From the NCBI GenBank assembly GCA_019115765.1, contig DXCZ01000018.1, positions 1 through 43,591 of the forward strand: DNA of 43,591 nucleotides, in the 5' to 3' direction. Every line of letters begins with the position of its first letter. The stretch's first letter is position 1. The notes beneath the pieces are model-generated. The model was given only the letters and a program-made list of their open reading frames with translations, did no database searches and was not told the DNA's origin. Made by a program: the position numbers and the translations under genes. The stretch comes from Candidatus Mediterraneibacter stercoripullorum (lineage in GTDB: Bacteria > Bacillota > Clostridia > Lachnospirales > Lachnospiraceae). Shown piece by piece: positions 5,498 to 26,584 of the stretch.

Positions 5498-7678
5498 ATG
5501 AATATTATTTATGACAGTAATAACGGCGTATTTCTGCTGAACACGGAGAATACTACATACGGGATCGCCATTGTTGATGGTTGTTATCTGGGGCATCTAT
5601 ATTATGGCGCAAGACTGGAAAGCACGGACATCAGATATCTGCTCAGAGAAGACGAAGGACCTCGTGTTCCTTCTGTTAACAGGCGGGAGAAGGGATCCTT
5701 TCTTGACTGTACGCCTCTGGAGTATCCTGAGACGGGCATGGGCGACTACAGGGAAAGCGCTCTTTGTATCCGGAGTCTGAGCGGGCACCGGGCCAGCGAG
5801 CTCTGCTATGAAGGATATGAGATCTGCGAGGGGAAACCTGCTCTGGAAGGTCTTCCGGCGACTTGGGGGAATTCTGCGGAATGCCGCACACTTAAGCTGT
5901 TCTGCCGTGACAGCCTGCTTGGGATGAAGGTGACTCTGCTGTATTCTGTATTTGCGGATGTGGATGCCATTACACGTGCGGTGCTGGTTGAGAATGAAGG
6001 AAGCGAGCCGTTCTATATTGAAAAGGTACTTTCTGCAAGTATTGATATGGATGACAGGAATTTTGAAGTCATGGGCCTCTTCGGTTCCTGGGCAAGAGAG
6101 CGGCATATTCAGAGAATGCCGCTGGGATACGGGAGGCAGAATATTTCTTCCTTCCGGGGGGAGTCCAGTCACCAGGAGCATCCATTTATGGCTCTTGTCA
6201 CTCCTGATACGACCCAGGATAGCGGGGAAGTTTATGCTATGAATTTCGTTTATTCCGGGAATTTTATCGCACAGGCGGAGAGAAACCAGTTTGACTCCGT
6301 CAGAATGAGTATGGGAATCCATCCGGAGGGATTTACCTGGAAGCTGGAGCCGGGAGAGTGTTTTACAGCGCCGGAAGTCGTTATGGTTTATTCTGATGAA
6401 GGGCTGGGGAAGATGACCCGTTCATTCCATGATCTGTACCGGAAGCATCTGATCAGGAGCCCGTATCTGCATCAGAAGCGGCCGATTCTGATCAATAACT
6501 GGGAGGCTACGTATTTCGATTTCGATGAGAAGAAGCTTCTGGATATAGCGGAGGAAGCATCCAGGCTGGGAATCGAGATGCTGGTCATGGATGATGGCTG
6601 GTTCGGGAACCGGAGCAGCGATGACAGTTCGCTGGGAGACTGGGTTGTCAATGAAGAGAAGATAAAGGGCGGTCTGAGCCTGCTTGTTGAAAATGTGAAG
6701 AAGATGGGACTCAAGTTCGGGATCTGGATCGAGCCGGAGATGATCTCGCCGGAGTCGGAACTGTACAGGGAACATCCGGACTGGGCGATCCAGATTCCTG
6801 GAAGAGAGACGACTCAGAGCAGAGCTCAGTATGTTCTTGATTTCTCCAGGGAGGAAGTGACGGACTGCATTTACGAGAAGATCGCAGCTGTGCTCAGGAG
6901 TGCGGATATTTCCTATGTGAAATGGGATATGAACCGCCAGCTTGCCACTATGGGGAGTTCTGCGCTGCCGGCGGACCGCCAGGGGGAATTGTATCACAGA
7001 TATATGCTGGGAGTGTACAGGATGCAGGAGAGGCTGATCACGGATTTCCCGGATATCCTTCTTGAGAACTGTTCTGGCGGCGGAGCCCGGTTTGATGCGG
7101 GTATGCTTTACTATAGTCCTCAGATCTGGTGCTCTGACGATACGGATGCCGTCGAGAGGCTGGCGATCCAGGAGGGAACGGCTATGCTTTATCCGGTATC
7201 CACGATGGGAGCTCATGTGAGTGTGTGTCCCAACCATACGGTAGGCAGGATGACTCCATTTGAGACGAGAGGAGATGTGGCGCTGCTTGGTACATTTGGG
7301 TATGAACTGGATATTACGAAACTGTCCGATGGAGAAAAGGAACTTGTGAAGAAGCAGGTGGAGCATTACCACAGGTACAATGATCTTATCCGTGAGGGAG
7401 ATTACTACAGAATTGCTTCGGTGTCGGAGAACGGATATTATGACAGCTGGATGATCCTCTCCGGTGATAAGAAGAAAGCATTGCTGTTTTATGTACAGGT
7501 GCGTGCGATGGCAAACGGAAAGAGCAGATTTATCAGGCTGAAGGGGCTTGAGCCGGAACGGGATTACTGTGTGGATGGAAAAGTATACTCCGGACAGGTC
7601 CTGATGAAAGCTGGTCTGAGGATTCCGGCGGAGTTCGGAGACTTTAAGAGCCGGATCCTGGAGGTGGAAGCAGTCTAA
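5498..7678 (+). CDS. GH36 alpha-galactosidase
   Basis: 726 residues, the normal length of tetrameric bacterial GH36 enzymes. It has an N-terminal beta-sandwich, a central TIM barrel and a C-terminal beta domain. The barrel opens with LVMDDGWFGNR, the nucleophile is D477 in YVKWDMNRQ, and the acid/base is in CSDDTDAVERL (D547, next to D548). CSGGGARFDAG is also conserved. It removes alpha-1,6-galactosyl groups from galactomannan or raffinose-type oligosaccharides. No signal peptide is present, so it acts in the cytoplasm after import. It is the first gene of a transcript continuing into two LacI genes, 46 bases downstream. Context in a mannan locus points to galactosyl side chains of (galacto)glucomannan. 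Confidence 0.95.
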   Translation: MNIIYDSNNGVFLLNTENTTYGIAIVDGCYLGHLYYGARLESTDIRYLLREDEGPRVPSVNRREKGSFLDCTPLEYPETGMGDYRESALCIRSLSGHRASELCYEGYEICEGKPALEGLPATWGNSAECRTLKLFCRDSLLGMKVTLLYSVFADVDAITRAVLVENEGSEPFYIEKVLSASIDMDDRNFEVMGLFGSWARERHIQRMPLGYGRQNISSFRGESSHQEHPFMALVTPDTTQDSGEVYAMNFVYSGNFIAQAERNQFDSVRMSMGIHPEGFTWKLEPGECFTAPEVVMVYSDEGLGKMTRSFHDLYRKHLIRSPYLHQKRPILINNWEATYFDFDEKKLLDIAEEASRLGIEMLVMDDGWFGNRSSDDSSLGDWVVNEEKIKGGLSLLVENVKKMGLKFGIWIEPEMISPESELYREHPDWAIQIPGRETTQSRAQYVLDFSREEVTDCIYEKIAAVLRSADISYVKWDMNRQLATMGSSALPADRQGELYHRYMLGVYRMQERLITDFPDILLENCSGGGARFDAGMLYYSPQIWCSDDTDAVERLAIQEGTAMLYPVSTMGAHVSVCPNHTVGRMTPFETRGDVALLGTFGYELDITKLSDGEKELVKKQVEHYHRYNDLIREGDYYRIASVSENGYYDSWMILSGDKKKALLFYVQVRAMANGKSRFIRLKGLEPERDYCVDGKVYSGQVLMKAGLRIPAEFGDFKSRILEVEAV

Positions 7679-8738: not shown

Positions 8739-8739
8739 T

Positions 8740-9738
8740 ATGCCGGAAGTGAAGCTGAAAGATATTGCTGATGAAATAGGAGTCAGTACAGTGACGGTTT
8801 CCAATGCGCTTTCCGGAAAGAAAGGCGTAAGTGACAGGATGCGCAGCAGGATCGAAGCTGTTGCCAGGAAGATGGGCTATAATGTAGACCGGTATACCAG
8901 GAAAGAGGAAGGGGGATTCCGGGTGGGAGTGCTTGTGGCGGATATTTACATTGAAGTGGGCAACTCTTTCTACTGGGCGCTGTATCAGCAGCTTGCCTTC
9001 GCTGCGTCAAAGTCTCAGAGCGTCACTATGCTGGAGGTGCTGGATTCAGAACTGCAGAAATCAAAAGAATTACCTAAAATGCTGCAGGAGAATGCTGTTG
9101 ACGGTATGATTATCATTGGATGGCTTTTCCGTCCCTATATTGAGAATCTGGTCAAGCATGCGGGAGTCCCTATCGTACTTCTGGATTTCGCTGTGAAAGG
9201 GCTGAAATGCGACGCTGTGCTGTCCAGTAATTATACTGGAATGTACAAAATGGTCCGCTACCTTCTGTCTAATGGCCACCGGGATATTGCCTACGTGGGA
9301 TCACGGTTTGCGAACGAGAATATCATGGACCGCTACTACGGATACAGGAAAGCTCTTATGGAGAATAATATCCGGTTCAGAAAGGAATGGGTCCTGGAGG
9401 ACCGTGATCTGATCACGGGAGAGGTGCGGATCTCACTTCCGGAAAATATGCCTACAGCATTTGCCTGCAACAGTGACCTGACGGCCAGCGCGCTTTATGA
9501 TCTTCTGCGGCAGCGGGGATATCGGATTCCTGAAGATATTTCCATTGTAGGATATGATAACTACCTGATACACAGTTTCGCATCCAGTTTGACAACGTAT
9601 AATGTAGACATGAAACGTATGGCGTCTATCGCGCTGAAGCTTCTGCTTGGCAAGATCAGGGGTGTGGAGAAAAATTATGGGATCCGGTATATTGACAGTA
9701 CGATCATTGAGAGAAGCAGTGTGAAGGAGCTGAGATGA
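8740..9738 (+). CDS. LacI-family transcriptional regulator, copy 2
   Basis: 332 residues, a paralogue of the preceding gene with an almost identical recognition region (VSTVTVSNALSGKKGVS). The sensor domain is more diverged, so the two may read the same operator but different ligands. The start at 8740 has AGGAGGA 9 bases upstream and lies one base after the previous stop; upstream in-frame codons overlap the previous gene and lack a ribosome-binding site. As in copy 1 the hinge (YNVDRYTRKEEGGFR) lacks the canonical Pro-Asn/Leu motif. It ends 93 bases before a long inverted repeat that separates it from the convergent DUF624 gene. Confidence 0.93.
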   Translation: MPEVKLKDIADEIGVSTVTVSNALSGKKGVSDRMRSRIEAVARKMGYNVDRYTRKEEGGFRVGVLVADIYIEVGNSFYWALYQQLAFAASKSQSVTMLEVLDSELQKSKELPKMLQENAVDGMIIIGWLFRPYIENLVKHAGVPIVLLDFAVKGLKCDAVLSSNYTGMYKMVRYLLSNGHRDIAYVGSRFANENIMDRYYGYRKALMENNIRFRKEWVLEDRDLITGEVRISLPENMPTAFACNSDLTASALYDLLRQRGYRIPEDISIVGYDNYLIHSFASSLTTYNVDMKRMASIALKLLLGKIRGVEKNYGIRYIDSTIIERSSVKELR

Positions 9739-10594: not shown

Positions 10595-10902
10595 TTTAAC
10601 CTCTCCTTTAACTAAATATTAATCTTAAATATAGAATAACATATTTAAAATAAAAATCAATTTAATTTTTAACAAATAGATTAAACTAGATTAAATTAAA
10701 AACTATTTAAGCTATTAAAAAAGTGATTAGTTATAGAAAAATTGGAAAAAGACAAAAAAACATAGAAAAATTGAACAAAATTCAACGATAATTATTAGAG
10801 AAATGATAGAAAATGAATTAAATCAAAGAAAAAACTTGAAATTAAAACAAGCTAATGATAAGATTAAACCAAGTTAAAAATCACTTTAAAGGAGGAACCA
10901 AA
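10595..10902. promoter_or_regulatory. AT-rich divergent control region between the DUF624 and binding-protein genes
   Basis: About 300 bases of extremely AT-rich sequence with no coding potential. It holds direct repeats TAGATTAAAC/TAGATTAAAT (10677-10696), further TTAAAT-type words (near 10660, 10691 and 10818), and ATAATTAT near 10788, echoing the TAATTA core of the palindrome in the GH36 promoter. AAAGGAGGA (10888-10896) is the ribosome-binding site of the downstream lipoprotein. It must contain promoters in both directions. The operator assignment is inference. Confidence 0.6.
10836..10864 (+). promoter_or_regulatory. Candidate promoter of the sugar-binding lipoprotein operon
   Basis: TTGAAA (10836-10841) and TAAGAT (10859-10864) with 17-base spacing, about 40 bases before the start. 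In such an AT-rich tract other -10-like words exist, so this is only the best-placed candidate. Confidence 0.4.
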
Positions 10903-12276
10903 ATGAAAAAGAAAAAAGTATTCGCATTGGCACTGGCGGCAGCAATGACCCTTTCACTGGCAGCCTGCGGCAATAATGGCGGGGGCAGCGGCGAAGGCAG
11001 CAGTGAAGCAACTGATGTGACTCTGGACCAGATCACTCTTGGAGAGGACTACACAGATATTGAGGCAGAGCTTCATTTCCTGACTCACAAGACAGATGTC
11101 GTGGATACAAAGTTCCAGGATTACATCAATGAGTTCAACGAGATGTATCCGAACATTACGATTGAGTACGAAGGTATCACGGATTATGCCAATGATGTAA
11201 CAACCCGTCTTTCTACAGGAGACTGGGGAGACATCTGTATGATCCCGACTACAGTTGCGAAGGATGACCTGGGAGATTACTTCCTGGCGCTGGGCGATAC
11301 GGATACGCTTGGTGAGACTTACACCATGCTGGACAACTTCTCCTACGATGGAAAATCCTACGGACTTCCTTCCATGGCGAACATTCAGGGCGTTGTATAC
11401 AACAAGGCAGTATTTGAGGAGGCAGGAATTACAGAGCTTCCCACAACACCGGATGAATTCCTTGATGCCCTTCAGAAGATCAAGGACAACACAGACGCCA
11501 TCCCGCTTTATACCAACTTCGCAGCAGGCTGGACAATGAGCGCATGGGATGCTTACATCGACGGATGCGCTACAGGTGATACAAACTTTGCCAATGAAGG
11601 TCTGACAAAAGGTGAGAATCCCTTCTCTGACAGAGGAGACGGCACAGGCCCCTATGCAGTATACAACACACTGTATGAAGCTGTTGCACGCGGCCTGACA
11701 GAGGACGACCCGACAACGACTGACTGGGAAGGCAGCAAAGGTATGCTGAATAATGGTGAGATCGGTGTTATGGTACTTGGATCCTGGGCTCTTCCGCAGA
11801 TGCAGCAGGCAGGCGACAATGCAGACGATATCGCTTACATGCCGTTCCCGATCAGCGTGGATGGTATCCAGTATGCAACGGAAGGACCGGATTATTTCTA
11901 TGGTATCAATGTAAACAGCTCTGCAGATCAGCAGATCGCAGCAATGTGCTACATAAAATATCTTGTTGAGCAGTCCGGATTTGCAGCATCCGAGGGTGGT
12001 GTTGACTGTCTCGTAGATGCTGAGTTCCCGGAGGCTCTGGCATCCTTCCAGTCTGATACGGTTAAGATCATCATGAACGATCCGGCTCCGGAAGGAGAAG
12101 AGACACTGCAGTCTGATATTAACAACGAGTCTGAGCTTGGCATCAACGTATCCGGTGAGCTTGCTACTCAGGTAGTTGAGAATGCTACGACAGGCGCAAA
12201 GACCATGGACGAACTGGCTGACGAGTGGAATGCAGCATGGACAGCAGCTCAGGAAGAGAACGGTATTACACATTAA
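10903..12276 (+). CDS. ABC transporter sugar-binding lipoprotein (probable mannooligosaccharide-binding protein)
   Basis: 457 residues of the family 1 extracellular solute-binding proteins. The signal peptide MKKKKVFALALAAAMTLSLAAC ends in a lipobox with the lipidated cysteine at position 22, followed by a Gly/Ser/Asn-rich linker. The mature protein has the usual pattern for oligosaccharide binders (FQDYINEFNEMYPNITIEYE, YGLPSMANIQGVVYNKAVFE, GEIGVMVLGSWALPQM). It captures oligosaccharides at the cell surface for the two permeases downstream. The start at 10903 is supported by AAAGGAGGA 6 bases upstream and the immediate signal peptide; the longer frame adds a non-signal extension. By synteny with the R. 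intestinalis mannan locus the ligand is probably (galacto)(gluco)mannooligosaccharide. Confidence 0.93.
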   Translation: MKKKKVFALALAAAMTLSLAACGNNGGGSGEGSSEATDVTLDQITLGEDYTDIEAELHFLTHKTDVVDTKFQDYINEFNEMYPNITIEYEGITDYANDVTTRLSTGDWGDICMIPTTVAKDDLGDYFLALGDTDTLGETYTMLDNFSYDGKSYGLPSMANIQGVVYNKAVFEEAGITELPTTPDEFLDALQKIKDNTDAIPLYTNFAAGWTMSAWDAYIDGCATGDTNFANEGLTKGENPFSDRGDGTGPYAVYNTLYEAVARGLTEDDPTTTDWEGSKGMLNNGEIGVMVLGSWALPQMQQAGDNADDIAYMPFPISVDGIQYATEGPDYFYGINVNSSADQQIAAMCYIKYLVEQSGFAASEGGVDCLVDAEFPEALASFQSDTVKIIMNDPAPEGEETLQSDINNESELGINVSGELATQVVENATTGAKTMDELADEWNAAWTAAQEENGITH

Positions 12277-12304
12277 TCTGAGATAACTGTAAGAGAAGAA
12301 CAAG

Positions 12305-12336
12305 TGCCGCAGCGGCCGAAATGAGGTGCTGCGGCA
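12305..12336 (+). other. Intercistronic hairpin between binding protein and permease
   Basis: TGCCGCAGC (12305-12313) and GCTGCGGCA (12328-12336) form a perfect 9-bp GC-rich stem with a 14-base loop and no T tract. In ABC sugar operons such hairpins commonly protect the 3' end of the binding-protein mRNA or partly reduce read-through, giving more lipoprotein than permease. Confidence 0.6.
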
Positions 12337-12366
12337 TCTCTTCCCGCAGCAGGAAAGGAGAAAGAT

Positions 12367-13359
12367 ATGAGGGAAAAGAGATCTTTTCGCGAATGGCTTG
12401 CGACAGGTAAAGTAAACCGCAGACTGGTCATGGTAACATTTATGTTCATACCTCTGCTTCTGCTGGTTGTATTTACCTACCTTCCTTTTGGAAAGATGAT
12501 CCAGTTCAGTTTTTATGATATGGCTTATCTTGGTGACCGTGAATTCGTAGGCCTGGACAATTATATTGAAGTGTTTACAAGAGACGATTGTTTCCAGGCT
12601 TTGAAACTCAGCGTATATTATATGGTCGGAGCATTTATCCAGCTGGCGCTTGCGCTGTTCTTCGCATCTATCCTCAGTACAAAGATGAAGGGAGCGGGGA
12701 TCTTCAAAGGACTCCTGTTCTTCCCCTATCTGGTATGTGGTATTGCAGTCGGATTCATTTTCAAGTTCTTCTACACAAGAGGCTTTGTATTCGATACAGT
12801 GCTGCAGTGGATCGGATTTGAACTTGATAACCTTCCGTACTGGCTGAGAGATACAAGTATCAACAATGTTTCTCTGGCTGCGACTTCGATCTGGAGATAT
12901 ATGGGACAGAACATGGTGCTGTTTATCGGAGCGATCATGTCTGTGGACGCCTCTATGTATGAGGCTGCGGATATTGACGGAGCCAGCGGTCTCCAGAAAT
13001 TCCTTTATGTGACATTCCCGAGCATCAAGACCATCATCGTTCTGAACCTAATCCTTTCCATCACAGGTTCACTGAGTGTATTCGAGCCGCCATATGTTAC
13101 AACCGGAGGTGATTTCGGAACAGGTACTTACTTCGTTATTATGAACGAATTGGCACATGAGAGTCAGAAAGTAGGACTTGCGTCCGCAATGGCGATCGTA
13201 CTTCTTGTGATCATCCTGATCGCAACAGCGCTTCAGAAGCTGTTCTTCTGGTATTTCTTCGGTGAAGGTGAGCAAGAAGCTTACCGTGTGATCCGGAAAC
13301 GAAAGAAACTGGCTGAAAAAGAAGCGGCGCTCGCGGCACAGAAGGGAGGAACCGTGTAA
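12367..13359 (+). CDS. ABC sugar transporter permease 1 (MalF type)
   Basis: 330 residues with six predicted membrane spans in the binding-protein-dependent permease fold. The N-terminal VMVTFMFIPLLLLVVFTYLPFGKMIQFSFYD is characteristic. The EAA loop contacting the ATPase reads YEAADIDGASGLQKFLYVTFPSIK. The C-terminus is charged. AAAGGAG precedes the start. It forms the channel with the following gene; their stop and start overlap (TAATG), showing coupling. No ATPase gene is in the cluster, so a shared MsmX/MsmK-type ATPase encoded elsewhere is expected. Confidence 0.94.
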   Translation: MREKRSFREWLATGKVNRRLVMVTFMFIPLLLLVVFTYLPFGKMIQFSFYDMAYLGDREFVGLDNYIEVFTRDDCFQALKLSVYYMVGAFIQLALALFFASILSTKMKGAGIFKGLLFFPYLVCGIAVGFIFKFFYTRGFVFDTVLQWIGFELDNLPYWLRDTSINNVSLAATSIWRYMGQNMVLFIGAIMSVDASMYEAADIDGASGLQKFLYVTFPSIKTIIVLNLILSITGSLSVFEPPYVTTGGDFGTGTYFVIMNELAHESQKVGLASAMAIVLLVIILIATALQKLFFWYFFGEGEQEAYRVIRKRKKLAEKEAALAAQKGGTV

Positions 13360-14204
13360 TGTCAACTGCTAAATTGAAAAAGATAATCATAACGATTTTA
13401 AAATATCTTGCACTTCTGCTGGCGTCCTTCATCGCGGTGCTTCCTCTGGTAAGCTGTGTTATCACCGCTTTCAAGACACCGGAAGAATACGCGGCTACCA
13501 GTGTTATGGAACTCCCCAGCAGCTGGCTGTATTTTGAAAACTTTATCCAGGCGTGGGATCAGGCAAACATGGGTCTGGCGTTCCGGAACTCTTTTATCAT
13601 CCTTGTGTGCGTACTTATCGGTGCTGTGCTGATCGGATCAATGCTGGCTTATGTACTGAGCAGATTTAAATTTTTCGGAAACGGACTGATCAGGAACCTG
13701 TTCCTGTTCGCATCCCTTCTTCCCGGTATTGCAATGCAGGTATCTGTATATCAGATCATGTATACACTGGGCTGGATCAACAGTCTGCCTGGCTACATTG
13801 TTCTGATGTGTGGAACAGATGTTATTTCTATCTACATTTTCATTCAGTTTTTCGAGAATATCTCGACATCTCTGGATGAAGCTGCGATCATGGACGGATG
13901 TACATACTTCGGAGTATTCTTCCGGATCCTGCTTCCGCTTCTGAAACCTGCGATCATTACAGTCATGATCCTGAAAGGCGTGGGCGTGTATAACGAATAC
14001 TACATGGCGAACCTGTATCTGCAGGACAAGAACTCTCTTGTAACAGTGGCTACATCGCTGTTCAAGTTTACAGGCCCTCTGGGCAACCAGTACAACTATA
14101 TCTGCGCGGGTGTTATCATTACCATGATCCCGGCGCTGATCATCTTCATTCTCTGCCAGAAACAGATCTACGGCGGTCTGGCTCAGGGTGCGGTAAAAGG
14201 CTGA
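13359..14204 (+). CDS. ABC sugar transporter permease 2 (MalG type)
   Basis: 281 residues, six membrane spans, with the MalG-type EAA loop LDEAAIMDGCTYFGVFFRILLPLLKPA and a C-terminus ending KQIYGGLAQGAVKG, typical of this half of carbohydrate importers. It partners with the preceding permease and the lipoprotein at 10.9 kb. The start overlaps the previous stop by one base; GGGAGG lies within the end of the previous gene about 9 bases upstream. Confidence 0.94.
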   Translation: MSTAKLKKIIITILKYLALLLASFIAVLPLVSCVITAFKTPEEYAATSVMELPSSWLYFENFIQAWDQANMGLAFRNSFIILVCVLIGAVLIGSMLAYVLSRFKFFGNGLIRNLFLFASLLPGIAMQVSVYQIMYTLGWINSLPGYIVLMCGTDVISIYIFIQFFENISTSLDEAAIMDGCTYFGVFFRILLPLLKPAIITVMILKGVGVYNEYYMANLYLQDKNSLVTVATSLFKFTGPLGNQYNYICAGVIITMIPALIIFILCQKQIYGGLAQGAVKG

Positions 14205-14276: not shown

Positions 14277-15302
14277 ATGAGTAATGTAAAGATCATAGGG
14301 CCCAATGTGCCCAATATGCCGTGGCAGGACCGCCCGGCTCAGGCGTCAGGAGATCTTCCGGTATGGAGATACAGTGAGAACCCGATCATCGGCCGCAATC
14401 CGGCAAAGGGAGTGGCGAGGATATTCAACAGTGCAGTCATGCCTTATGAGGACGGATTCATCGGCGTGTTCCGCGGCGAGCAGACCAACGGCATCCCCTA
14501 TATCTATCTTGGAAGAAGCAGTGATGCCATCCACTGGGAATTTGATGAGGAGAAAATTCCTTTTAAAGATGAAAACGGCAATGATTTTATGCCGAGATAC
14601 GCATATGATCCGAGACTTGTAAAAGTAGAGGATACCTACTATATCATGTGGTGCCAGGATTTCTACGGGGCTTCCATCGGAATTGCAAAGACTCAGGATT
14701 TCAAGACATTTACAAGAATCGAAAATCCCTTTATCCCGTTCAACCGCAATGCGGTCCTGTTCCCGAGAAAAGTGAACGGAAACTACATGCTTCTCTCAAG
14801 ACCAAGTGACAGCGGACATACACCTTTCGGAGATATTTTCCTCTCTGAGAGCCCGGACATGGTCTACTGGGGAAAACACCGTCATGTGATGGGCAACAGC
14901 AGCAACTGGTGGGAGAATGTGAAGATTGGCGGCGGCGCTGCTCCGATCGAGACGTCAGAGGGGTGGCTTTTGTTCTATCACGGAGTTACCGGCACATGCA
15001 ACGGCTACGTATACAGTATCGGCGGAGCAATCCTGGATATTGATAATCCGTCAGTGGTGAAATACCGCTGCAGCACCTTCCTGCTCACACCGGAAGAGTG
15101 GTATGAGGAGAGAGGATTCGTGCCGAACGTAGCCTTCCCCTGTGCGACAATCCATGATGCAGAGACCGGAAGGATCGCAGTCTACTATGGATGTGCGGAC
15201 ACTTATGTAGGTCTGGCCTTCACAACAGTAGACGAAGTCGTAGGTTATATCAAAGACCACAGCGTGGTATCTGAGACAGATACAGAAATCGGGATCCGCT
15301 GA
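14277..15302 (+). CDS. GH130 beta-1,4-mannooligosaccharide phosphorylase (RaMP2-like)
   Basis: 341 residues forming a five-bladed propeller of family GH130, of the shorter type active on beta-1,4-mannooligosaccharides. The enzyme cleaves the non-reducing mannose with inorganic phosphate, giving alpha-mannose-1-phosphate and a shortened chain. The general acid is D111 in YAYDPRLV. Other family segments are FNSAVMPYEDGFIGVFRGE, GGGAAPIETSEGWLLFYHGV and YYGCADTYVGLAFT. No signal peptide, so cytoplasmic. GGAGG is 10 bases upstream. It sits between the importer and the epimerase, and its shortest product, mannobiose, is the epimerase's likely substrate. Confidence 0.93.
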   Translation: MSNVKIIGPNVPNMPWQDRPAQASGDLPVWRYSENPIIGRNPAKGVARIFNSAVMPYEDGFIGVFRGEQTNGIPYIYLGRSSDAIHWEFDEEKIPFKDENGNDFMPRYAYDPRLVKVEDTYYIMWCQDFYGASIGIAKTQDFKTFTRIENPFIPFNRNAVLFPRKVNGNYMLLSRPSDSGHTPFGDIFLSESPDMVYWGKHRHVMGNSSNWWENVKIGGGAAPIETSEGWLLFYHGVTGTCNGYVYSIGGAILDIDNPSVVKYRCSTFLLTPEEWYEERGFVPNVAFPCATIHDAETGRIAVYYGCADTYVGLAFTTVDEVVGYIKDHSVVSETDTEIGIR

Positions 15303-15340: not shown

Positions 15341-16513
15341 ATGTTCGTACAGGAAGTAAAAGACCATCTGGAACATAAGATCATTCCCTTCTGGGAAAAT
15401 CTTAAAGACGAGGAATACGGCGGCTATTACGGATATCTGGGATATGATCTTGAGCTGGATAAGAAAGCAGTCAAGGGATGCATCCTGAACAGCCGGATCC
15501 TCTGGTTCTTCTCCAATACTTATATGCTCCTCAGAGACGAGACGCTGCTGGAGCATGCCCGTCACGCGTATCTCTTTCTCAGAGATCACTGCATCGACAG
15601 AGAATACGGAGGTATCTACTGGTCTCTGGCTTATAACGGAGAACCGGAGGATACTACGAAGCATACTTACAATCAGGCATTTGCGATTTACGCACTGTCG
15701 TCCTACTATGACGCCTCGGGGGATGAAGAAGCCCTCGCGCTGGCACGGGAACTCCGGGGAATCATTGAGACGAAATGCAAGGATGAATACGGATATCTGG
15801 AGGCGTTCAACCGCCGTTTTGAACCGGAAGATAATGACAAGCTGTCTGAAAACGGGGTCATGGCAGAGAAGACAATGAATACGCTTCTTCACGTTTTTGA
15901 GGCTTATACGGAGCTGTATCGTGTGACAAAAGATCATGAGGTGGGAGATAATCTCCGGTTTATGCTGGATCTCATTGCGGATAAGGTTTACAATCCGAAG
16001 GAGGGAAGGCAGGAAGTATTCTTTGACCGGACATGGAACTCTTTGATCGACCTTTATTCTTACGGGCATGATATTGAGACCGCATGGCTGGTAGACCGGG
16101 GACTTGAGGTTCTGGGAGATGCAGCCTATACAGAGAAACTGTCACCTATTACAAAGACCATTACGGCAAATATCTACCACAGAGCATATATTGATCATTC
16201 CCTTGTAAATGAGGCGGAGAATAAGGTGGTGGATACGACCCGGATCTGGTGGGTGCAGGCTGAGGCTGTAGTGGGATTCCTGAACGGATACCAGAAGTCC
16301 CCGGAGCATAAAGAGTACCTTGAGGCGGCTGTGGATATCTGGAACTATATCCGCACGTATCTTGTGGACAGCAGAGAGGGATCCGAGTGGTACTGGGCTC
16401 TTGACAAAGACAGAAAACCTCTCGAGAAGCCTATTGTAGAGCCGTGGAAATGTCCGTATCATAACGGCAGGATGTGTATCGAAGTGATCAGGAGGATGCA
16501 GGACAATGCATAA
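15341..16513 (+). CDS. Cellobiose/mannobiose 2-epimerase
   Basis: 390 residues of the N-acylglucosamine 2-epimerase superfamily with an (alpha/alpha)6 barrel. It interconverts the reducing-end glucose and mannose of beta-1,4-disaccharides, turning mannobiose into mannosyl-glucose. The catalytic and binding histidines are H184 (LLHVFEAY), H243 ([11 protein letters not shown]) and H374 (CPYHNGRM); this numbering matches what I recall for Ruminococcus albus cellobiose 2-epimerase. Aromatic residues such as WYWALD complete the site. The stop overlaps the start of the mannosylglucose phosphorylase gene by 8 bases, coupling two enzymes that act one after the other. Confidence 0.93.
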
Positions 16514-17681
16514 ACAGTATTATATTGAGCAGGCAAAGGTAGAGAAGCTGATTGCCAGGAAAAATCAGAAAACAGACTTTTACAACGGAATATTTGACCG
16601 TTATGAATATCCGGTGCTGACAAGAGAGTTTGCCCCTGTCCACTGGAGATACGATCTCAACGAAGAGACCAATCCTTATTTTATGGAACGGCTGGGCATC
16701 AATGCGGTCATGAACTCAGGCGCCATCGAGCTGAATGGAAAGTATTACCTGGTTGTCCGGGTGGAGGGAAATGACCGGAAGTCCTTCTTTGCGGTGGCAG
16801 AGAGCGACACCGGCATCGACGGATTCCATTTCTGGGATTATCCGGTGGTGCTGCCGGATACATGCCCGGAGGAGACCAATGTATATGACATGCGTCTGAC
16901 AAAGCATGAGGATGGGTGGATCTACGGAGTGTTCTGTTCAGAGAGCAAAGACAAGAACGATCCGGATCTGTCCGCAGCAGTGGCGGCAGCGGGGATCGTC
17001 CGTACAAAGGATCTGAAGACATGGGAGAGGCTGGACAACCTTACTACGCTGAATTCTCCTCAGCAGAGAAATGTAGTCCTTCATCCGGAATTTGTAGATG
17101 GAAAGTATGCATTTTATACAAGACCTATGGACGGCTTCATCGAGACCGGAAGCGGCGGCGGGATCGGATTCGGTCTGTGCGACGATATCGAACATGCGGT
17201 GATCGATGAGGAGAAGATCATCAGCAGAAGAGTATATCATACGCTGACCGAGTCTAAGAACGGGGCCGGAGCTGTGCCGATCCGGGGAAAGAAATGCTGG
17301 ATCAATATCGCCCATGGTGTGCGGAATACGGCGGCAGGACTGAGATATGTACTCTATGTATTTGGTACTGATCTTAAAGATCCTTCTAAAGTGATCGCGC
17401 AGCCATCTGGTGTATTCCTTGTACCACTCGGGGCAGAACGTGTAGGAGATGTTTCCAACGTAGTATTTACAAATGGAGCTATTGCCAAAGAAAACGGAGA
17501 CGTTTATATCTATTATGCATCCTGCGATACACGGATGCATGTGGCAACCACTACCATTGACAAACTGGAGGATTATCTGTTCAATACACCTGAGGATCCG
17601 CTGAGATCACCGGACTGCGTGAAGCAGAGATGTGAGCTGATCAGAAAGAATCTGGAGATCCTGGAAAAGGAAGCTCGGTAA
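16506..17681 (+). CDS. GH130 4-O-beta-D-mannosyl-D-glucose phosphorylase
   Basis: 391 residues of GH130 subfamily 1, longer than the other GH130 in this operon because of N- and C-terminal helical extensions ([20 protein letters not shown] and [18 protein letters not shown]) typical of mannosylglucose phosphorylases such as BfMGP and RaMP1. The enzyme phosphorolyses mannosyl-beta-1,4-glucose to alpha-mannose-1-phosphate and glucose. The general acid is D128 in [27 protein letters not shown] and GGGIGFGLC are further family segments. It is cytoplasmic and acts directly after the epimerase whose gene it overlaps. Confidence 0.94.
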
Positions 17682-17747
17682 ATATGTAAATATAATGCGG
17701 GCGGTCACGTTATGGCCGCCCGGAGAAAAAATCAGGGGAGTGATCGA

Positions 17748-19504: not shown

Positions 19505-20647
19505 ATGTACAGGACAGATCTTGCAAGACTGAAACAATGTATGAGAAAGGCGCAGGCCGGGGAAGAACTGACGCTGGGGTTTTTCGGTGGTTCGATCACT
19601 CAGGACAGCCTGGCGACAAAGCATGAGAACTGTTATGCTTACAGGGTTTTTTCCTGGTGGAAGGAAAATTTTCCTGAGGCACAGCTGAGCTATGTAAACG
19701 GAGGAATCGGAGGGACTACTTCTCATTACGGGGTGTCCCGCGCAGTGACGGATATGTTGATGTATCAGCCGGATTTTATCGTAATAGATTTCAGCGTGAA
19801 TGATGAGCCGGATGAATTCTTCCAGGAGACTTATGAGGGGCTTGTCAGGAAAATGCTGACATGGCCGTCTCAGCCAGCCCTTCTTCTGCTGAACAATGTC
19901 TATTATGACACCGGGAAAAATGCTCAGGAGTACCATAATAAGGTAGGCGAATGGTATCAGATCCCTTATGTCAGCATCAGAGATACCGTATATAAGAGGA
20001 TGAAGGCGGGAGAGTTCTCCAGAGAAGAGATCACTCCTGACGGACTTCATCCCAATGATCTGGGACATGGTCTTGTAGCGGCAGAGATCACATCCTTCCT
20101 GGAACAGGTAAAGGAACATATGTGGGAAGATGAGCCGGGGACAGGGATCGGCACTCCGTACGGTGCTGATGCAGGAAGTGTCCTGCCGCCTGCCATGACG
20201 GAGAATGCTTACGAGAATGCCGTAAGGCTGACGATCCGGGAAGTATCGCCGGAACTGGGTGGATTCCGCACTGACGCCAGGGAGAAGAACGGGCATCTGG
20301 ATCATTTCAAAAACGGATGGATCGGGAAGAAACCGGGCGACAGCATCCGCTTTACTGTAGAGGCATCCTGCATTGCCATTCAGTACCGGAAGACGATCAG
20401 CCGGCCTGCATGCAGGGCTGAGTTGATCCTTGACGGAGATGAGGCGCATCCGGTTCTCCTGGACGGGAATTTCGATGAGGACTGGGGTGACTGCCTGTAT
20501 CTGGAACCTGTGCTCCATCACGGGGAAGATAAGATACATGTTCTGGATATCCGTATCCTGGATCCCGAAGAGCAGGCGGGAGATAAGGACGATCCGAATG
20601 CTTCACTGACACCGTTTTACCTGATGTCAGTGATCACAGCCAGGTGA
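19505..20647 (+). CDS. CE17-type SGNH acetyl-mannan esterase
   Basis: 380 residues. The SGNH domain comes first: S30 in FFGGSITQDS, Gly block GGIGGTTS (66-73), N99 in IDFSVNDEP, and D179/H182 in TPDGLHPNDLGH. A C-terminal beta-sandwich (about 210-375) resembles the CBM35-like domain of CE17. That order matches the RiCE17 esterase of Roseburia intestinalis, which removes 2-O-acetyl groups from mannooligosaccharides. The domain order is the reverse of the CE2 enzyme encoded just upstream, so the two are not tandem duplicates. No signal peptide. AAGGGGGG precedes the start. Together they would deacetylate acetylated glucomannan oligosaccharides before phosphorolysis. Confidence 0.87.
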   Translation: MYRTDLARLKQCMRKAQAGEELTLGFFGGSITQDSLATKHENCYAYRVFSWWKENFPEAQLSYVNGGIGGTTSHYGVSRAVTDMLMYQPDFIVIDFSVNDEPDEFFQETYEGLVRKMLTWPSQPALLLLNNVYYDTGKNAQEYHNKVGEWYQIPYVSIRDTVYKRMKAGEFSREEITPDGLHPNDLGHGLVAAEITSFLEQVKEHMWEDEPGTGIGTPYGADAGSVLPPAMTENAYENAVRLTIREVSPELGGFRTDAREKNGHLDHFKNGWIGKKPGDSIRFTVEASCIAIQYRKTISRPACRAELILDGDEAHPVLLDGNFDEDWGDCLYLEPVLHHGEDKIHVLDIRILDPEEQAGDKDDPNASLTPFYLMSVITAR

Positions 20648-20713
20648 AAAGGTTCCGGCAGAGGTTTGGCACAGGCTGGTTCCGTAACTAAAGTAGGAAA
20701 AGGAGAAAGATTT

Positions 20714-22438
20714 ATGGAAGCAAGAAAAAGATATGAAGAGTGGTTGGAAAATCCGTGTTTCGATGAGAAAACGAAAGAGGAGCTGCGGGGGATCGCAGAG
20801 GATGAAAAGGAAATCGAGGAGCGCTTTTATCGGGATCTGGAGTTCGGCACAGGAGGATTAAGAGGAATTATCGGTGCGGGAACGAACCGGATGAACATCT
20901 ATACAGTAAGAAAAGCGACTCAGGGACTGGCTAATTTTATCCGGAAAGAGAACGCTCAGGAGAAGGGTGTTGCCATTGCATTTGACTCCAGAAATATGTC
21001 GCCTGAATTCGCACAGGAGGCAGCCCTCTGCCTTGCCGCAAACGGGATCAAAGCATACATCTTCCCGTCTCTGCGCCCCACACCCATGCTGTCCTTTGCT
21101 CTGAGAGAGCTGGGATGTACGGCAGGGATCGTAGTGACGGCGAGCCACAATCCGCCGGAATATAACGGATATAAAGTGTACTGGGAGGATGGCGCTCAGA
21201 TCACATATCCAAAAGATGAGCAGATCATCGGAGAAGTAAATGCAGTGACAGACTATGCTTCCGTAAAGACGATGAGCAGAGAAGAAGCTGAAAAAGCAGG
21301 TCTGTATCAGGTGATCGGATCAGAGATTGATGATAAATATATCGCGGCACTGAAATCTCTTGTTATCCACCCGGAGATCATACGGCAGGAGGCACAGAAG
21401 TTAAAGATCGTCTACACTCCGCTCCACGGAACAGGAAATATACCGGTGCGCCGTATTCTGAAAGAGCTGGGATTTGAAAATGTCTATGTAGTAAAAGAGC
21501 AGGAGCTTCCGGACGGAAACTTCCCCACTGTGTCCTATCCCAACCCAGAGGATAAGAATGCATTTAAGCTCGCCCTGGAGCTGGCTGAGCAAGTAGACGC
21601 TGATATCGTGCTTGCCACAGATCCTGACGCGGACCGTCTTGGCGTATATGCGAAGGATACGGCAACGGGAAAATATATGAGCTTTACCGGGAATATGTCC
21701 GGAATGATCATTCTTGACTATATCCTCTCACAGAGAAAAGCCATGGGAACTCTGCCGGAAAACGGTGCCGTAGTCACAACTATCGTGTCCGGCAAGATGT
21801 CCAGGGGACTGGCGAAGGAATATGATATGGATCTGATCGAGACGCTCACCGGATTCAAATACATCGGCGAGCAGATCAAGTTCTTTGAGCAGAACCATGA
21901 CCATGAATTTGTCTTCGGATATGAAGAGAGCTACGGGTGTCTTGTAGGAACACATGCAAGAGATAAGGATGCTGTCGTGGCAGTTATGGCGCTGTGTGAG
22001 GCAGCTGCATTCTGCAGACACCAGGGCATCACACTCTGCGACCAGATGCACACTCTCTTTGAGAAATACGGATACTATAAGGAAGGTCTCTGTACTGTAA
22101 CGCTGAAAGGACAGGAAGGCGCAGAGAAGATCCGCTCCATGATGGAACAGATCCGTACCAGTGTTCCGGAGCAGATCGGAGGCCTGAAGGTACTGCAGTT
22201 CAGAGATTACAGAGAAAATGTACTGAGAAACTGTGAGACCGGAGAAGAGACGGAGACGGGACTTCCGAAATCAAATGTGCTCTATTTTGAACTGGAAGAC
22301 GGAGCATGGTGCTGTGTACGTCCTTCCGGAACAGAGCCGAAGATCAAGTTCTACATCGGCGTAAAAGGCAGCGGCGAAGAGGATGCGGCAGAGAAGCTGG
22401 CGGATCTGACGAAGGCTGTAGAAGCTCTGGCACAGTAA
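20714..22438 (+). CDS. Phospho-sugar mutase (phosphoglucomutase/phosphomannomutase)
   Basis: 574 residues of the alpha-D-phosphohexomutase superfamily. The phosphoserine is S144 in TASHNPPEYNGYK; the metal loop is DPDADRLG, the sugar-recognition loop EESYG and the phosphate-binding loop RPSGTEPKIKFY. It interconverts hexose-1- and hexose-6-phosphates; in this locus it would feed mannose-1-P and possibly glucose-1-P from the two phosphorylases into glycolysis. The start at 20714 is preceded by AAAAGGAGAAAG. The longer in-frame start at 20666 has no ribosome-binding site and adds a non-family leader. Dual Man/Glc specificity is inferred from context. Confidence 0.92.
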   Translation: MEARKRYEEWLENPCFDEKTKEELRGIAEDEKEIEERFYRDLEFGTGGLRGIIGAGTNRMNIYTVRKATQGLANFIRKENAQEKGVAIAFDSRNMSPEFAQEAALCLAANGIKAYIFPSLRPTPMLSFALRELGCTAGIVVTASHNPPEYNGYKVYWEDGAQITYPKDEQIIGEVNAVTDYASVKTMSREEAEKAGLYQVIGSEIDDKYIAALKSLVIHPEIIRQEAQKLKIVYTPLHGTGNIPVRRILKELGFENVYVVKEQELPDGNFPTVSYPNPEDKNAFKLALELAEQVDADIVLATDPDADRLGVYAKDTATGKYMSFTGNMSGMIILDYILSQRKAMGTLPENGAVVTTIVSGKMSRGLAKEYDMDLIETLTGFKYIGEQIKFFEQNHDHEFVFGYEESYGCLVGTHARDKDAVVAVMALCEAAAFCRHQGITLCDQMHTLFEKYGYYKEGLCTVTLKGQEGAEKIRSMMEQIRTSVPEQIGGLKVLQFRDYRENVLRNCETGEETETGLPKSNVLYFELEDGAWCCVRPSGTEPKIKFYIGVKGSGEEDAAEKLADLTKAVEALAQ

Positions 22439-22513
22439 GATGGATCAGACGGATCAATGATCGCCCCGGCAGGCAGTGAATATTCAAAACAGATGATACG
22501 GGAGGATTTCCAT

Positions 22514-23872
22514 ATGGGGTTTTCAGAAAATTTTGTATGGGGTGCAGCTACCAGTGCCTATCAGATTGAGGGCGGAGTACATGGGACTGGAAAAGGCATG
22601 CATATCTGGGATGTATATACAAAGGAACCGGGCAGAGTGTACGGAGGGCATACCGGGGATACTGCCTGCGATCACTATCACCGTTTCCGGGAGGATGTCC
22701 GGATCATGAAGGAAATGGGCCTTCAGGCATACAGATTTTCTATCGACTGGTCCAGGGTCCTTCCAGAAGGGACCGGCAGGGTGAATGAAGAAGGAATCCG
22801 GTTCTACAGCGACCTGATCGATGAATTGCTGAAAAATGGCATTGAGCCCTATGTTACACTCTTTCACTGGGAGCTGCCATATGAGCTGTATAAAAAGGGC
22901 GGCTGGATGAACCGGGATATTGCAGAATGGTTCGGGGAGTATACCCGTCTTGCGGCGGAGCGCTTCAGCGACCGGGTGAGCCATTTCTTCACCCTGAACG
23001 AGCCACAGTGCTTCGTTGGTCTGGGATTTCTCACCGGGGCCCATGCGCCCGGGCTGAAATGCCCTCTGCGGGATACTTTTGAGATGGCCCACAATGCGCT
23101 GCGTGCCCATGGAAGAGCCGTGCAGATGCTCCGGCAGTATGGAAAGCAGCCTCTGACTATCGGATACGCGCCCACCAGCGGGATCATCTATCCTGCATCA
23201 GAGCGCCCGGAGGATATCGAGGCGGCAAGGCAGCAGTATTTCGGCATGCAGGATGATGATGCCAACTGGACATGGAACGTTTCCTGGTGGTCAGATCCGG
23301 TCCTTCTCGGGCACTACCCAGAGGAGGGGATGAAGCGATATGAAAAATATCTTCCGAAGATCACGGAGGAGGATATGAAGCTTATCTCCGAGCCTATTGA
23401 TGTGTACGGACAGAACATCTACAACGGCAGGGCATTCCGCATGGGACAGGATGGAAAACCGGAGGAAATGGAACGTGAGCCGGGATATCCCATGACGGGG
23501 GTAGACTGGCCGGTAACGCCTGAGTGCCTGTACTGGGGGCCCAAGTTCCTTTATGAGAGATATCATAAGCCGATCTATATTACTGAAAATGGCATGGCAT
23601 GCCATGACACAGTTTCACTGGACGGAAAAGTCCACGATCCTAACCGGATCGATTTCCTGGCGCGATATCTGGGCCAGCTGAAGCGGGCTGCGGAGGAGAT
23701 TGATCTGAGAGGCTATTTCCAGTGGTCGCTTATGGATAATTTCGAGTGGGAAAAAGGCTACAAAGGCAGGTTCGGTCTGGTTTATGTGGACTTTATGACT
23801 CAGGAAAGGATCCTGAAGGATTCGGCGTACTGGTACAGAGATGTAATAAGTAATAATGGCAGGGATCTTTGA
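22514..23872 (+). CDS. GH1 beta-glucosidase
   Basis: 452 residues, a standard GH1 TIM barrel. The N-terminus FVWGAATSAYQIEGG is diagnostic; the acid/base is E163 in TLNEPQ and the nucleophile E358 in ITENG. The C-terminal WSLMDNFEWEKGYKGRFGLVYVD forms the sugar-binding aglycone wall. The sequence lacks the Ser/Lys/Tyr signature of 6-phospho-glycosidases (the C-terminal segment reads NFEWEKGY), so it should act on unphosphorylated sugars. Cytoplasmic. It probably trims terminal beta-1,4-glucose from glucomannan oligosaccharides so that the phosphorylases can proceed. The start at 22514 has GGAGG 8 bases upstream; the longer frame has none. It ends the co-directional run of mannan genes. Confidence 0.93.
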   Translation: MGFSENFVWGAATSAYQIEGGVHGTGKGMHIWDVYTKEPGRVYGGHTGDTACDHYHRFREDVRIMKEMGLQAYRFSIDWSRVLPEGTGRVNEEGIRFYSDLIDELLKNGIEPYVTLFHWELPYELYKKGGWMNRDIAEWFGEYTRLAAERFSDRVSHFFTLNEPQCFVGLGFLTGAHAPGLKCPLRDTFEMAHNALRAHGRAVQMLRQYGKQPLTIGYAPTSGIIYPASERPEDIEAARQQYFGMQDDDANWTWNVSWWSDPVLLGHYPEEGMKRYEKYLPKITEEDMKLISEPIDVYGQNIYNGRAFRMGQDGKPEEMEREPGYPMTGVDWPVTPECLYWGPKFLYERYHKPIYITENGMACHDTVSLDGKVHDPNRIDFLARYLGQLKRAAEEIDLRGYFQWSLMDNFEWEKGYKGRFGLVYVDFMTQERILKDSAYWYRDVISNNGRDL

Positions 23873-24286: not shown

Positions 24287-26584
24287 ATGAGGATTTATGT
24301 AAATCAGGCAGGATACCTGCCGGGAAGCAGGAAGACGGTTCTGCTTGCAGAGGCGGCAGAGCAGGAAAGCAGTAAGAAGGAAGTTGAACATTCATCAGAA
24401 ACGGTCAGAGTTATGGACCGGAGTGGAAGATGTGTACTGGAAAAAGAAGCAGAATACTGGGGATACGATGAATGCGCGGGAGACCTTGTGTGGAGAGCGG
24501 ATCTGACAGGACTGACTGTTCCGGGCGAATATCGGGTAGAATATGAAAAGGAGCAGATATCCTGTTCTCTGCACATAGCAGAGGATGTGTATGCAGGGCT
24601 TTGCAGAACTCTGTCAAAAGCGCTGTATTTCCAGCGGTGCGGAATAGAACTGGAGGAACCTTATGCAGGAAAATTCAGCAGAAAAGCCTGCCATATGGAA
24701 CAGGCTGTCCGGCTTGAGGATTATGAAAAAGCATCTCAGGGGACGGCTGCTCAGGCCATCCGGTACTTCGATGTGCAGGGCGGCTGGCATGACGCCGGAG
24801 ATTACGGGAGATATACCACTACGGCAGCAGCGGCGCTGGCACATCTGCTGTACGCGTATCAGTTTTTCCCGGAGGCTTTTTCTGAGAGCCTGAATATTCC
24901 GGAGAGCGGAAACGGGATGCCGGATATTCTCAATGAGTGCCTTTATGAACTGAAATGGCTCCTGAAGATGCAGATGGAAGATGGAAGTGTCTGCCATAAA
25001 CTGACTTCTATGCGTCATGCTAACTTTGTGATGCCGTCGGAAGATCACAGGAGGTTCATTCTGTTCCCGGCTTCCTCTATGGCTGCAGCGGATTTTACTG
25101 CGGTTATGGCTCTCGCATCACGGGTGTACAGCAGATTCGACGAGGCATTTTCACGGGTGGCTCTTGAAGCGGCAGAACGTTCCTGGAACTGGCTGGAAAA
25201 CCATCCGGAATTTACAGGATTTCAGAATCCGGAGGGATGTAATACCGGTGAATATGCTGATACAGATGACAGAGATGAAAGACTGTGGGCCGCGGCAGAA
25301 ATGTACCGCACTCTTCAGAAGGTCAGATATCTGGAAAAAGCGGAGCAGCTTTTTGGCGTTCTGGAAGCGGAAGGAAAAGACATGGTATCCATGGGCTGGG
25401 GCGATGTATCCGGATTTGCAGGATGGAGTCTGCTGGAAGACCTTCTGAAAACGGCGGAGCCTGACTGTGCAGACAGCCCGGCCTGTGGTGAAAAGGAAAA
25501 TACAGATCACAGCAGTGAAGGAAATAAGGATGGAAAGGCAGCCGGCCTTTCGCGGAGATATCTGGAAGCATTTACGGCTGAGGCTGAGCGGATCCTGGCG
25601 CTGTGCAGAGACAGCGGGTATGGAGTGGCTATGGTTTCCGGAGAATATGAGTGGGGAAGCAATATGACAGTGCTTAACCGGGCGATGATACTTGGAACCG
25701 CATTTATTCTGACCGGAAATCCATGCTACAGGGAGTGTGCAGTGCAGCAGATGGACTATATCCTGGGAGTAAACGCAGCAGGATACAGCTATGTCACCGG
25801 TGCAGGGGAACATGCATTCCGGAATCCTCATAACAGAGTTACTGTGGCGGATGGGATAGAGGAAACTATACCGGGATTTGTATCCGGCGGTCCCAATGCA
25901 TATCCTGTGGACGAGAAGGCCGAATGGCTGATCCGTCCGGGAACATCGCCCATGAAATGTTATCTGGATATCTGGGAGTGTTATTCGCTGAACGAGATTA
26001 CGATCTACTGGAATTCCCCGGCTGTATTTGCCGCGGCTTTCTTGAGTACAGAGAAGGAGGAGAGCGGACCTTTTGAAACGCTGGAATCCAGAAAGGTGAA
26101 GGCAGGAAGGTTTACGATCGTTCAGGATCATGTGCGGGTAAACGGACATGAGCAGCCTTACGATTATATGGAAATCCGGGAAGGAGTAAGCGTTCTTCCT
26201 ATTCTGGACGGACATGTACTCCTTCAGAAACAGTACCGTTATCCGGTCAGATCCTGGCAGTGGGAACTGCCGGGCGGCTTTGTAGATCCGGGGGAAATTC
26301 CGGCGACGGCAGCGGTCCGTGAACTGGAGGAGGAGACCGGATACCAGGTGAAGAATCTGGTCCCGCTGGGAGCGTTCTATCCGTCTTTCGGCTCTACCAA
26401 TGAAAAGATACATCTTTTTGCAGCCGAGTGTGGAGAAAAAGGGGAGACACACAGAGAACCGGGAGAAGTGATACGGATGGAGAAAGTGACGATAGAAGAG
26501 TTCAGACAGCTTGTAGCGGAAGGAAAGTTCATGCACGGCGCCGGCCTGGCGGCATGGGCCAGATACATGAGCAGTATCAATTAA
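24287..26584 (+). CDS. GH9 glycoside hydrolase fused to a Nudix (ADP-ribose pyrophosphatase-like) domain
   Basis: 765 residues in one frame. Residues 1-90 are the Ig-like lead domain (IYVNQAGYLPGSRKTVLLAE), and about 95-590 form the GH9 (alpha/alpha)6 barrel with WHDAGDYGRY (D169 and base D172), FRNPHNR and acid E570 in SLNEITIYWNSP. An acidic insert lies near 388-425. Residues about 600-765 are a Nudix domain with a complete Nudix box at 664-686 (GFVDPGE ... RELEEETGY) and the ADP-ribose-pyrophosphatase features QKQYRYPVRSWQWELPGG and AFYPSFGSTNEK. No signal peptide, so the GH9 part probably acts on imported beta-1,4-gluco-oligosaccharides. AAGGAGG at 26054-26060, just before the Nudix part, looks like a relic ribosome-binding site. 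AAAGGA precedes the main start. Confidence 0.9.
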   Translation: MRIYVNQAGYLPGSRKTVLLAEAAEQESSKKEVEHSSETVRVMDRSGRCVLEKEAEYWGYDECAGDLVWRADLTGLTVPGEYRVEYEKEQISCSLHIAEDVYAGLCRTLSKALYFQRCGIELEEPYAGKFSRKACHMEQAVRLEDYEKASQGTAAQAIRYFDVQGGWHDAGDYGRYTTTAAAALAHLLYAYQFFPEAFSESLNIPESGNGMPDILNECLYELKWLLKMQMEDGSVCHKLTSMRHANFVMPSEDHRRFILFPASSMAAADFTAVMALASRVYSRFDEAFSRVALEAAERSWNWLENHPEFTGFQNPEGCNTGEYADTDDRDERLWAAAEMYRTLQKVRYLEKAEQLFGVLEAEGKDMVSMGWGDVSGFAGWSLLEDLLKTAEPDCADSPACGEKENTDHSSEGNKDGKAAGLSRRYLEAFTAEAERILALCRDSGYGVAMVSGEYEWGSNMTVLNRAMILGTAFILTGNPCYRECAVQQMDYILGVNAAGYSYVTGAGEHAFRNPHNRVTVADGIEETIPGFVSGGPNAYPVDEKAEWLIRPGTSPMKCYLDIWECYSLNEITIYWNSPAVFAAAFLSTEKEESGPFETLESRKVKAGRFTIVQDHVRVNGHEQPYDYMEIREGVSVLPILDGHVLLQKQYRYPVRSWQWELPGGFVDPGEIPATAAVRELEEETGYQVKNLVPLGAFYPSFGSTNEKIHLFAAECGEKGETHREPGEVIRMEKVTIEEFRQLVAEGKFMHGAGLAAWARYMSSIN

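Follow-up and report, generated by a model that had tools for sequence, protein, structure and literature searches.

The closest described counterpart of the genes analyzed here is the beta-mannan utilisation locus of Roseburia intestinalis (MULL). As far as the main text of PMC6385246 goes, MULL comprises a LacI regulator, an ATP-binding cassette (ABC) importer, two phosphorylases of glycoside hydrolase (GH) family 130, an epimerase, two carbohydrate esterases, GH36 and GH1 enzymes, and a phosphomutase that converts mannose-1-phosphate and glucose-1-phosphate; the same text describes a bifunctional GH1-isomerase protein. The regulator, importer, phosphorylases, epimerase, esterases, GH36, GH1 and a phosphogluco/phosphomannomutase (PGM/PMM) also occur in a single run of genes on contig DXCZ01000018.1 of Candidatus Mediterraneibacter stercoripullorum (43,591 nucleotides; this whole stretch is called the window below), which ends downstream of them in a gene for a GH9 hydrolase fused in frame to a Nudix hydrolase (24287-26584). 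Judged by gene content, the locus of the fusion is laid out like the R. intestinalis beta-mannan utilisation locus. It differs in its GH9-Nudix end, neither GH9 nor Nudix being mentioned in the main text on MULL (PMC6385246), and, unlike in R. intestinalis, GH113 and the isomerase are encoded elsewhere in the genome: the GH113 match lies on another contig (C54, 58% identity), while isomerase and kinase are separate genes away from the locus.

The GH9 and Nudix domain families are known. GH9 enzymes with an N-terminal immunoglobulin (Ig) domain (PDB ID: 3x17, 3ez8, and 1clc) match the window protein over CelD_N and/or GH9 and in the catalytic residues; in contrast to them, it has a C-terminal Nudix domain, a mannan-type locus and, by inspection, no signal peptide. 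The nucleoside diphosphate sugar hydrolase (NDPSase) Bd3179 from Bdellovibrio (PDB ID: 5c7q/5c7t) is 30% identical to the Nudix half, but is described, in the part of PMC4629899 bearing on it, as periplasmic and carrying Asp-X-Lys, where the window protein has His-Gly-Ala. The GDP-mannose pyrophosphatase NudK from E. coli is 19-21% identical. ADP-ribose pyrophosphatases (ADPRases) share the fold, the N-terminal sheet domain, and the Nudix box, and are 22-32% identical in structural alignments; the window protein differs from them in having Phe701 for their marker proline and in being fused to a glycoside hydrolase. We take the compared ADPRases to be E. coli NudF, MT-ADPRase, and Thermus Ndx2 and Ndx4, some of these names being presumed. 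In the literature library searched, with some matches judged by title only, no paper was found on the fusion architecture, its repeated origin, or a link to mannan loci, and none contained both 'Nudix' and 'GH130'; Nudix is likewise not mentioned in the main text of the other mannan papers searched by term.

Conservation of the GH9-Nudix fusion

The open reading frame (ORF) has no internal stop, and its CelD_N, GH9, and NUDIX matches (the last at residues 631-739, E 6.5e-22) all exceed the Pfam cut-offs. This bears out an earlier reading of the sequence alone (the sequence-only reading), which had proposed an in-frame fusion of two complete halves. The GH9 match covers positions 1-443 of the 444 in the profile, i.e., the whole catalytic domain, and Asp169, Asp172, and Glu570 are invariant across 13 aligned GH9 proteins; we assume that the Asp pair of the DAGD motif and the Glu are catalytic. 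The Nudix box, GFVDPGEIPATAAVRELEEETGY, is intact: the signature GX5EX7REXXEEXG occupies residues 664-685 and is present in 134 of 136 rows examined; position 23 of the box is Tyr rather than Ile, Leu, or Val. By inspection, no signal peptide is evident at the N-terminus (MRIYVNQAGYLPGS...), so that the cytoplasmic location suggested in the sequence-only reading is reasonable. Modelled alone as a monomer with AlphaFold2, the Nudix part adopts the Nudix fold with a predicted local distance difference test score (pLDDT) of 95.0; the full-length model (mean pLDDT 84.1) holds no usable inter-domain information. The product of the ORF is a single polypeptide that combines two complete enzymes, a beta-glucanase-type GH9 hydrolase and a Nudix hydrolase. 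Narrower assignments of the Nudix half were rejected. The scores for YffH/AdpP membership (TIGR00052, 46.7 bits against a curated cut-off of 79.55) and for the NudE equivalog fall below their cut-offs, and a transcription factor, presumably of the NrtR type, is inconsistent with the intact signature and with the absence of a DNA-binding domain above the Pfam cut-off.

The genus was represented by 58 genomes, that of the window (G000) included. One other, G042, carries the identical architecture at 90% identity. Over codons 580-611, which span the junction, the two differ by 13 synonymous and no non-synonymous changes. The ratio of non-synonymous to synonymous substitution rates (dN/dS) is 0.131 for GH9; that of the Nudix part, 0.027, is similar to GH1 (0.034) and PGM (0.037) of the same locus; a variable insert within GH9 reaches 0.58 and is shorter or absent in several relatives. 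These values indicate purifying selection on both halves and a conserved fusion. When the full protein was searched against a protein collection (7997 candidates sharing most words scored), the best 120 of 1767 matches included at least four more clusters with the GH9-Nudix architecture, at about 60% identity; the window protein's own cluster has 59 member sequences, and a scan of the genome contigs with the full protein gave six loci. The window's genome is fragmented (123 contigs, 89% complete), and an assembly or binning error that joined two genes had been considered in the sequence-only reading. Because the junction recurs in a separate genome with synonymous changes only, the dN/dS values are low, and further clusters share the architecture, we conclude that the junction is translated and kept; the probability left to such an error is negligible, and it is rejected for this ORF.

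In G008 (L010), a genome with no other GH9 match in that search, positions 8577-8711 of contig C8 encode 45 residues that share 78% identity with residues 544-588 of GH9; this fragment is probably a GH9 relic.

Recurrent fusion of the Nudix domain

With the Nudix part as a query, and only proteins of 0.55-1.75 times 765 amino acids (aa) considered, 15 clusters of Nudix fusions were found, the partners being GH9 (5), GH113 (4), phosphomannose isomerase (PMI; 3), GH36 (1), GH32 (1), and a metallo-beta-lactamase (MBL) fold (1). Partner and NUDIX were confirmed with Pfam in all of the nine clusters scanned and in G042; for the remaining six, domain calls come from precomputed annotation. Enzyme types of the mannan pathway are the partners in 13 of the 15 clusters; for GH113, isomerase, and GH36, the partner shares 47-81% identity with proteins encoded in these loci. 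Given six partner families, joining must have occurred six or more times, unless one partner was exchanged for another.

Phylogenetic trees point the same way. Stand-alone Nudix proteins were taken from the best 120 of 734 matches, 76 of which entered a quick tree of 103 rows together with the 15 fused clusters, G042, and 11 stand-alone locus genes (proteins shorter than 170 aa and about half of those from P0165 on were left out); removal of 12 long-branch or outlying rows left 91 for a careful tree. On the latter, GH9 fusions require five changes (four forced, as against three forced on the quick tree), GH113 three, and isomerase three (all forced), while fused versus stand-alone state requires 13 (nine forced), gains and losses being inseparable in these counts. 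A single GH9, GH113, or PMI group appeared in 0% of 200 bootstrap Nudix trees. A quick GH9 tree of 61 rows (six fused, three unfused locus genes, and, from P0007-P0059, 52 unfused proteins with a length of 540 aa or more) requires five changes for the fused rows (four forced), and their union in one clade is rejected (p-AU 2e-78). One ancestral GH9-Nudix fusion is hence rejected on the GH9 tree and is not seen on the Nudix tree. By their placement in these trees, Nudix copies fused to different pathway enzymes sit on several separate branches.

The sequence-only reading suggested that the two halves were once separate genes, and relatives support this. The stop codon of GH9 and the start codon of Nudix share the 4 bases ATGA in G048 (L063:4352-4355), with the likely ribosome-binding site of the Nudix gene inside the 3' end of GH9; this overlap is a state close to fusion. 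In G046, the genes are separate and in reverse order, Nudix then GH9, with a 24-base gap. The Nudix part of the fusions sets in where stand-alone Nudix proteins naturally begin, at the PFETL stretch or an equivalent of it, as in EESGPFETL of the window compared with MESRIPFETL of the stand-alone P0132. Fusion would arise easily, since neighbouring genes abut or overlap.

The AAGGAGG motif before the Nudix domain does exist, but its interpretation in the sequence-only reading as a relic ribosome-binding site is not supported. The window contains nine copies, against 8.0 +/- 3.3 in shuffles, and because this count is at chance level the motif alone is no evidence of a relic; moreover, going by the linker, the homologous old start codon falls nearly atop the motif, which makes a normal spacer impossible. 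A relic might still be present, given that in G048 the sequence preceding the Nudix start, with the likely ribosome-binding site, is placed within the 3' end of GH9. No in-frame start codon is common to G000 and G042 between residues 575 and 615, so the window Nudix probably exists in fused form only. The linker of cluster P0003 retains the Met at which cluster P0149 begins, and may therefore give rise to an additional product consisting of Nudix alone.

Distribution of the Nudix subfamily

Within the genus, the 391-aa GH130 gene of the locus occurs (E <= 1e-50) in seven of the 58 genomes, and an intact Nudix orthologue (at least 73% identity) in exactly those seven; relatedness within the genus means that these are not 58 independent trials. 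G048 has the two genes on different contigs, the other six genomes on a shared one. None of the remaining Nudix matches listed for the genus exceeds 49% identity, and where most of the domain is spanned the value is about 27-36%. Shared pathways are often revealed by fusion partners, and the multiple partners together with the exact locus match in the genus suggest that a Nudix hydrolase takes part in the catabolism of mannan by bacteria. The sequence-only reading had seen no functional reason to join the two halves; their common place in a beta-mannan-type locus and the fusion of Nudix to other pathway enzymes speak otherwise.

In G046, G038, G023, G020, and, from another genus, G424, the run continues with a fusion of PMI and a ROK kinase and then a Nudix gene. 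Such PMI-ROK fusions precede the Nudix gene at L062:6987-8882, L064:7723-9618 (631 aa each), and L070:7707-9557 (616 aa); in clusters P0126, P0129, and P0130 it is the Nudix domain that is fused to the isomerase, as though it and the kinase were interchangeable. In G183, also of another genus, a GH9 gene stands beside GH36 and importer genes without a Nudix of the window's subfamily, so GH9 is a member of such loci independently of Nudix. Genome G005 alone holds an additional Nudix copy, split over two frames (L067:9751-10325), and no such GH130; the copy seems to have decayed once the locus had been lost.

Beyond the genus, the subfamily was found in two of 392 genomes of an order-wide sample (one being G000), in three of 245 relatives of G424 (all already found in other searches), in none of seven genomes of the genus of G175, and not in the single genome of that of G303. 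These searches together added one distant member, in G686 (43% identity). From its distribution in Mediterraneibacter-type Lachnospiraceae, the Nudix subfamily is an optional, clade-limited addition to loci of this kind. Two genera (G067 and G138; L071:7019-9615 and L073:4978-6459) have distant members with a DUF1846 protein nearby, in one case with a ROK kinase in between; a different role outside mannan loci is possible for them.

Specificity and proposed role

According to the relevant part of PMC4629899, ADPRases are marked by a proline that follows the signature glycine at a distance of about 15 residues, and NDPSases by Asp-X-Lys at the signature glycine +65. In the fusion protein the former column is occupied by Phe701, within a PSFG motif found in 132 of 134 rows, and the latter by His750-Gly751-Ala752. 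The Nudix half thus lacks the published markers of both ADPRases and NDPSases; the label ADP-ribose-pyrophosphatase-like from the sequence-only reading is apt for fold and superfamily, not for the marker residue.

We consider the chances evenly balanced that the best explanation as a whole is a conserved fusion in a mannan-type locus, in which GH9 trims and Nudix clears a nucleotide sugar. After import of (gluco)manno-oligosaccharides, the GH9 half, which has no evident signal peptide, would trim their beta-1,4-glucose linkages, a role assigned to GH3 enzymes in R. intestinalis and Faecalibacterium prausnitzii. Less surely, phosphorolysis by GH130 may flood the cell with mannose-1-phosphate, so that a nucleotide sugar (GDP-, ADP-, or UDP-hexose) accumulates, and the Nudix half may hydrolyze it, handing sugar-1-phosphate back to the PGM/PMM of the locus. 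Fusion to a neighbour would fix 1:1 co-expression. A nucleotide sugar derived from mannose-1-phosphate or glucose-1-phosphate is the favoured substrate; if it is correct, the side-reaction cost of phosphorolytic pathways via mannose-1-phosphate would become apparent. The bolder proposal, of a pathway enzyme of a new specificity class that recycles misdirected nucleotide-hexoses in gut Lachnospiraceae degrading mannan via mannose-1-phosphate, and that was repeatedly welded C-terminally to GH9, GH113, GH36, or PMI for 1:1 production, is distinctly doubtful.

Several observations weigh against the best explanation. In a sample of 397 genomes of the family, the 391-aa GH130 was found in 71 (E <= 1e-100) and Nudix in seven (E <= 1e-28), with both in only four (G000, G424, G306, and G419) and both in one locus in G000 and G424 alone; most genomes bearing this GH130 lack the Nudix, among them G183 with its GH9. 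The stretches around Nudix in G067, G438, G138, and G306 held no homologue of the window locus other than Nudix itself, and the single neighbour scanned in G419 is a GH3 protein. Neither the GH32 nor the MBL partner is a mannan enzyme, and five clusters (P0006, P0125, P0128, P0129, and P0131) each consist of one sequence from one contig and may be artefacts, the other ten having more members or contigs. The changes counted on the trees may include losses. Residues 497-568 of GH9 are poorly modelled though conserved, the NDPSase marker is absent, and Thermus Ndx2 (PDB ID: 2yvm) ties on Z in the fold search (21.8).

The Nudix half might instead be an ordinary housecleaning pyrophosphatase for ADP-ribose (or NAD/FAD-derived compounds), placed in the locus by accident and fused neutrally with abutting genes. 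Against this, the marker proline is replaced by the Phe of PSFG, an unlinked housekeeping gene would be expected to show neither the match with the locus (7/58) nor the bias in partners (13/15), and the window's genome encodes another Nudix protein, 32% identical; we regard this alternative as rather unlikely. A neutral origin of the fusions themselves, as a by-product of tight gene packing that brings no benefit even though the Nudix enzyme serves the pathway, has a likelihood that falls a little short of even. The overlap in G048 is one small step from fusion, junctions begin directly at the stand-alone N-terminus, partners vary (GH32 and MBL included) as if any upstream gene would serve, and the internal Met of P0003 may still permit a separate Nudix product. 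Against neutrality, the window Nudix is probably available as a fusion only, given the lack of a conserved start, and the junction of G000 and G042 has been preserved without amino-acid change, which is not decisive, as a neutral fusion would also be hard to undo.

Features of the locus

The coordinates of the fusion and its neighbours are collected in Table 1. From its position only, we take the GDSL esterase to be CE17. A 228-aa protein without a Pfam match is encoded at 17712-18398, inside the locus. Its counterparts in the loci of G038, G023, G020, and G424 are 42-45% identical, and that in G042, split into two ORFs, is 86-89% identical; by this recurrence it is an unnamed conserved member of the locus.

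Table 1. Features of the GH9-Nudix gene and its locus in the window
Feature	Position	Strand	Basis
GH36 alpha-galactosidase family protein	5498..7678	+	Pfam Melibiase/GH36
Second LacI-like ORF	7725-8738	+	By inspection only
LacI-family regulator	8740..9738	+	Pfam on 8734-9735
Sugar ABC importer: binding protein and two permeases	10855..14204	+	Pfam
GH130 phosphorylase family protein a	14277..15302	+	Pfam PF04041
Cellobiose/mannobiose 2-epimerase-like protein	15341..16513	+	Pfam PF07221; NCBIfam EpiA E 1.3e-89, below model cut-off
GH130 phosphorylase family protein b, 391 aa, locus marker	16506..17681	+	Pfam PF04041; genome searches
CE2-type esterase	18438-19490	+	Pfam CE2_N
GDSL esterase	19505-20647	+	Pfam GDSL
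Phosphogluco/phosphomannomutase	20666..22438	+	Pfam PGM_PMM I-IV
GH1 beta-glucosidase	22457..23872	+	NCBIfam TIGR03356, above cut-off
CelD_N-GH9-Nudix fusion, single ORF, 765 aa	24287..26584	+	ORF list; Pfam; same architecture in G042
CelD_N N-terminal Ig-like domain, residues 2-89	24290..24553	+	Pfam PF02927, E 3e-11
GH9 catalytic domain, residues 102-582	24590..26032	+	Pfam PF00759, E 1.8e-87; alignment
Variable insert within GH9, residues 385-420	25439..25546	+	Alignment; 50% identical to G042
Junction/linker STEKEESG, residues 587-594	26045..26068	+	Codon comparison with G042
AAGGAGG, within codons for KEE	26054..26060	+	Motif count
Nudix hydrolase domain with N-terminal beta-sheet part, residues 595-765	26069..26581	+	Pfam; AlphaFold2; fold matches
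Intact Nudix box, residues 664-686	26276..26344	+	Signature scan

Annotation of such proteins calls for caution, as P0006 is named only 'glycoside hydrolase family 9 protein' despite its Nudix fusion.
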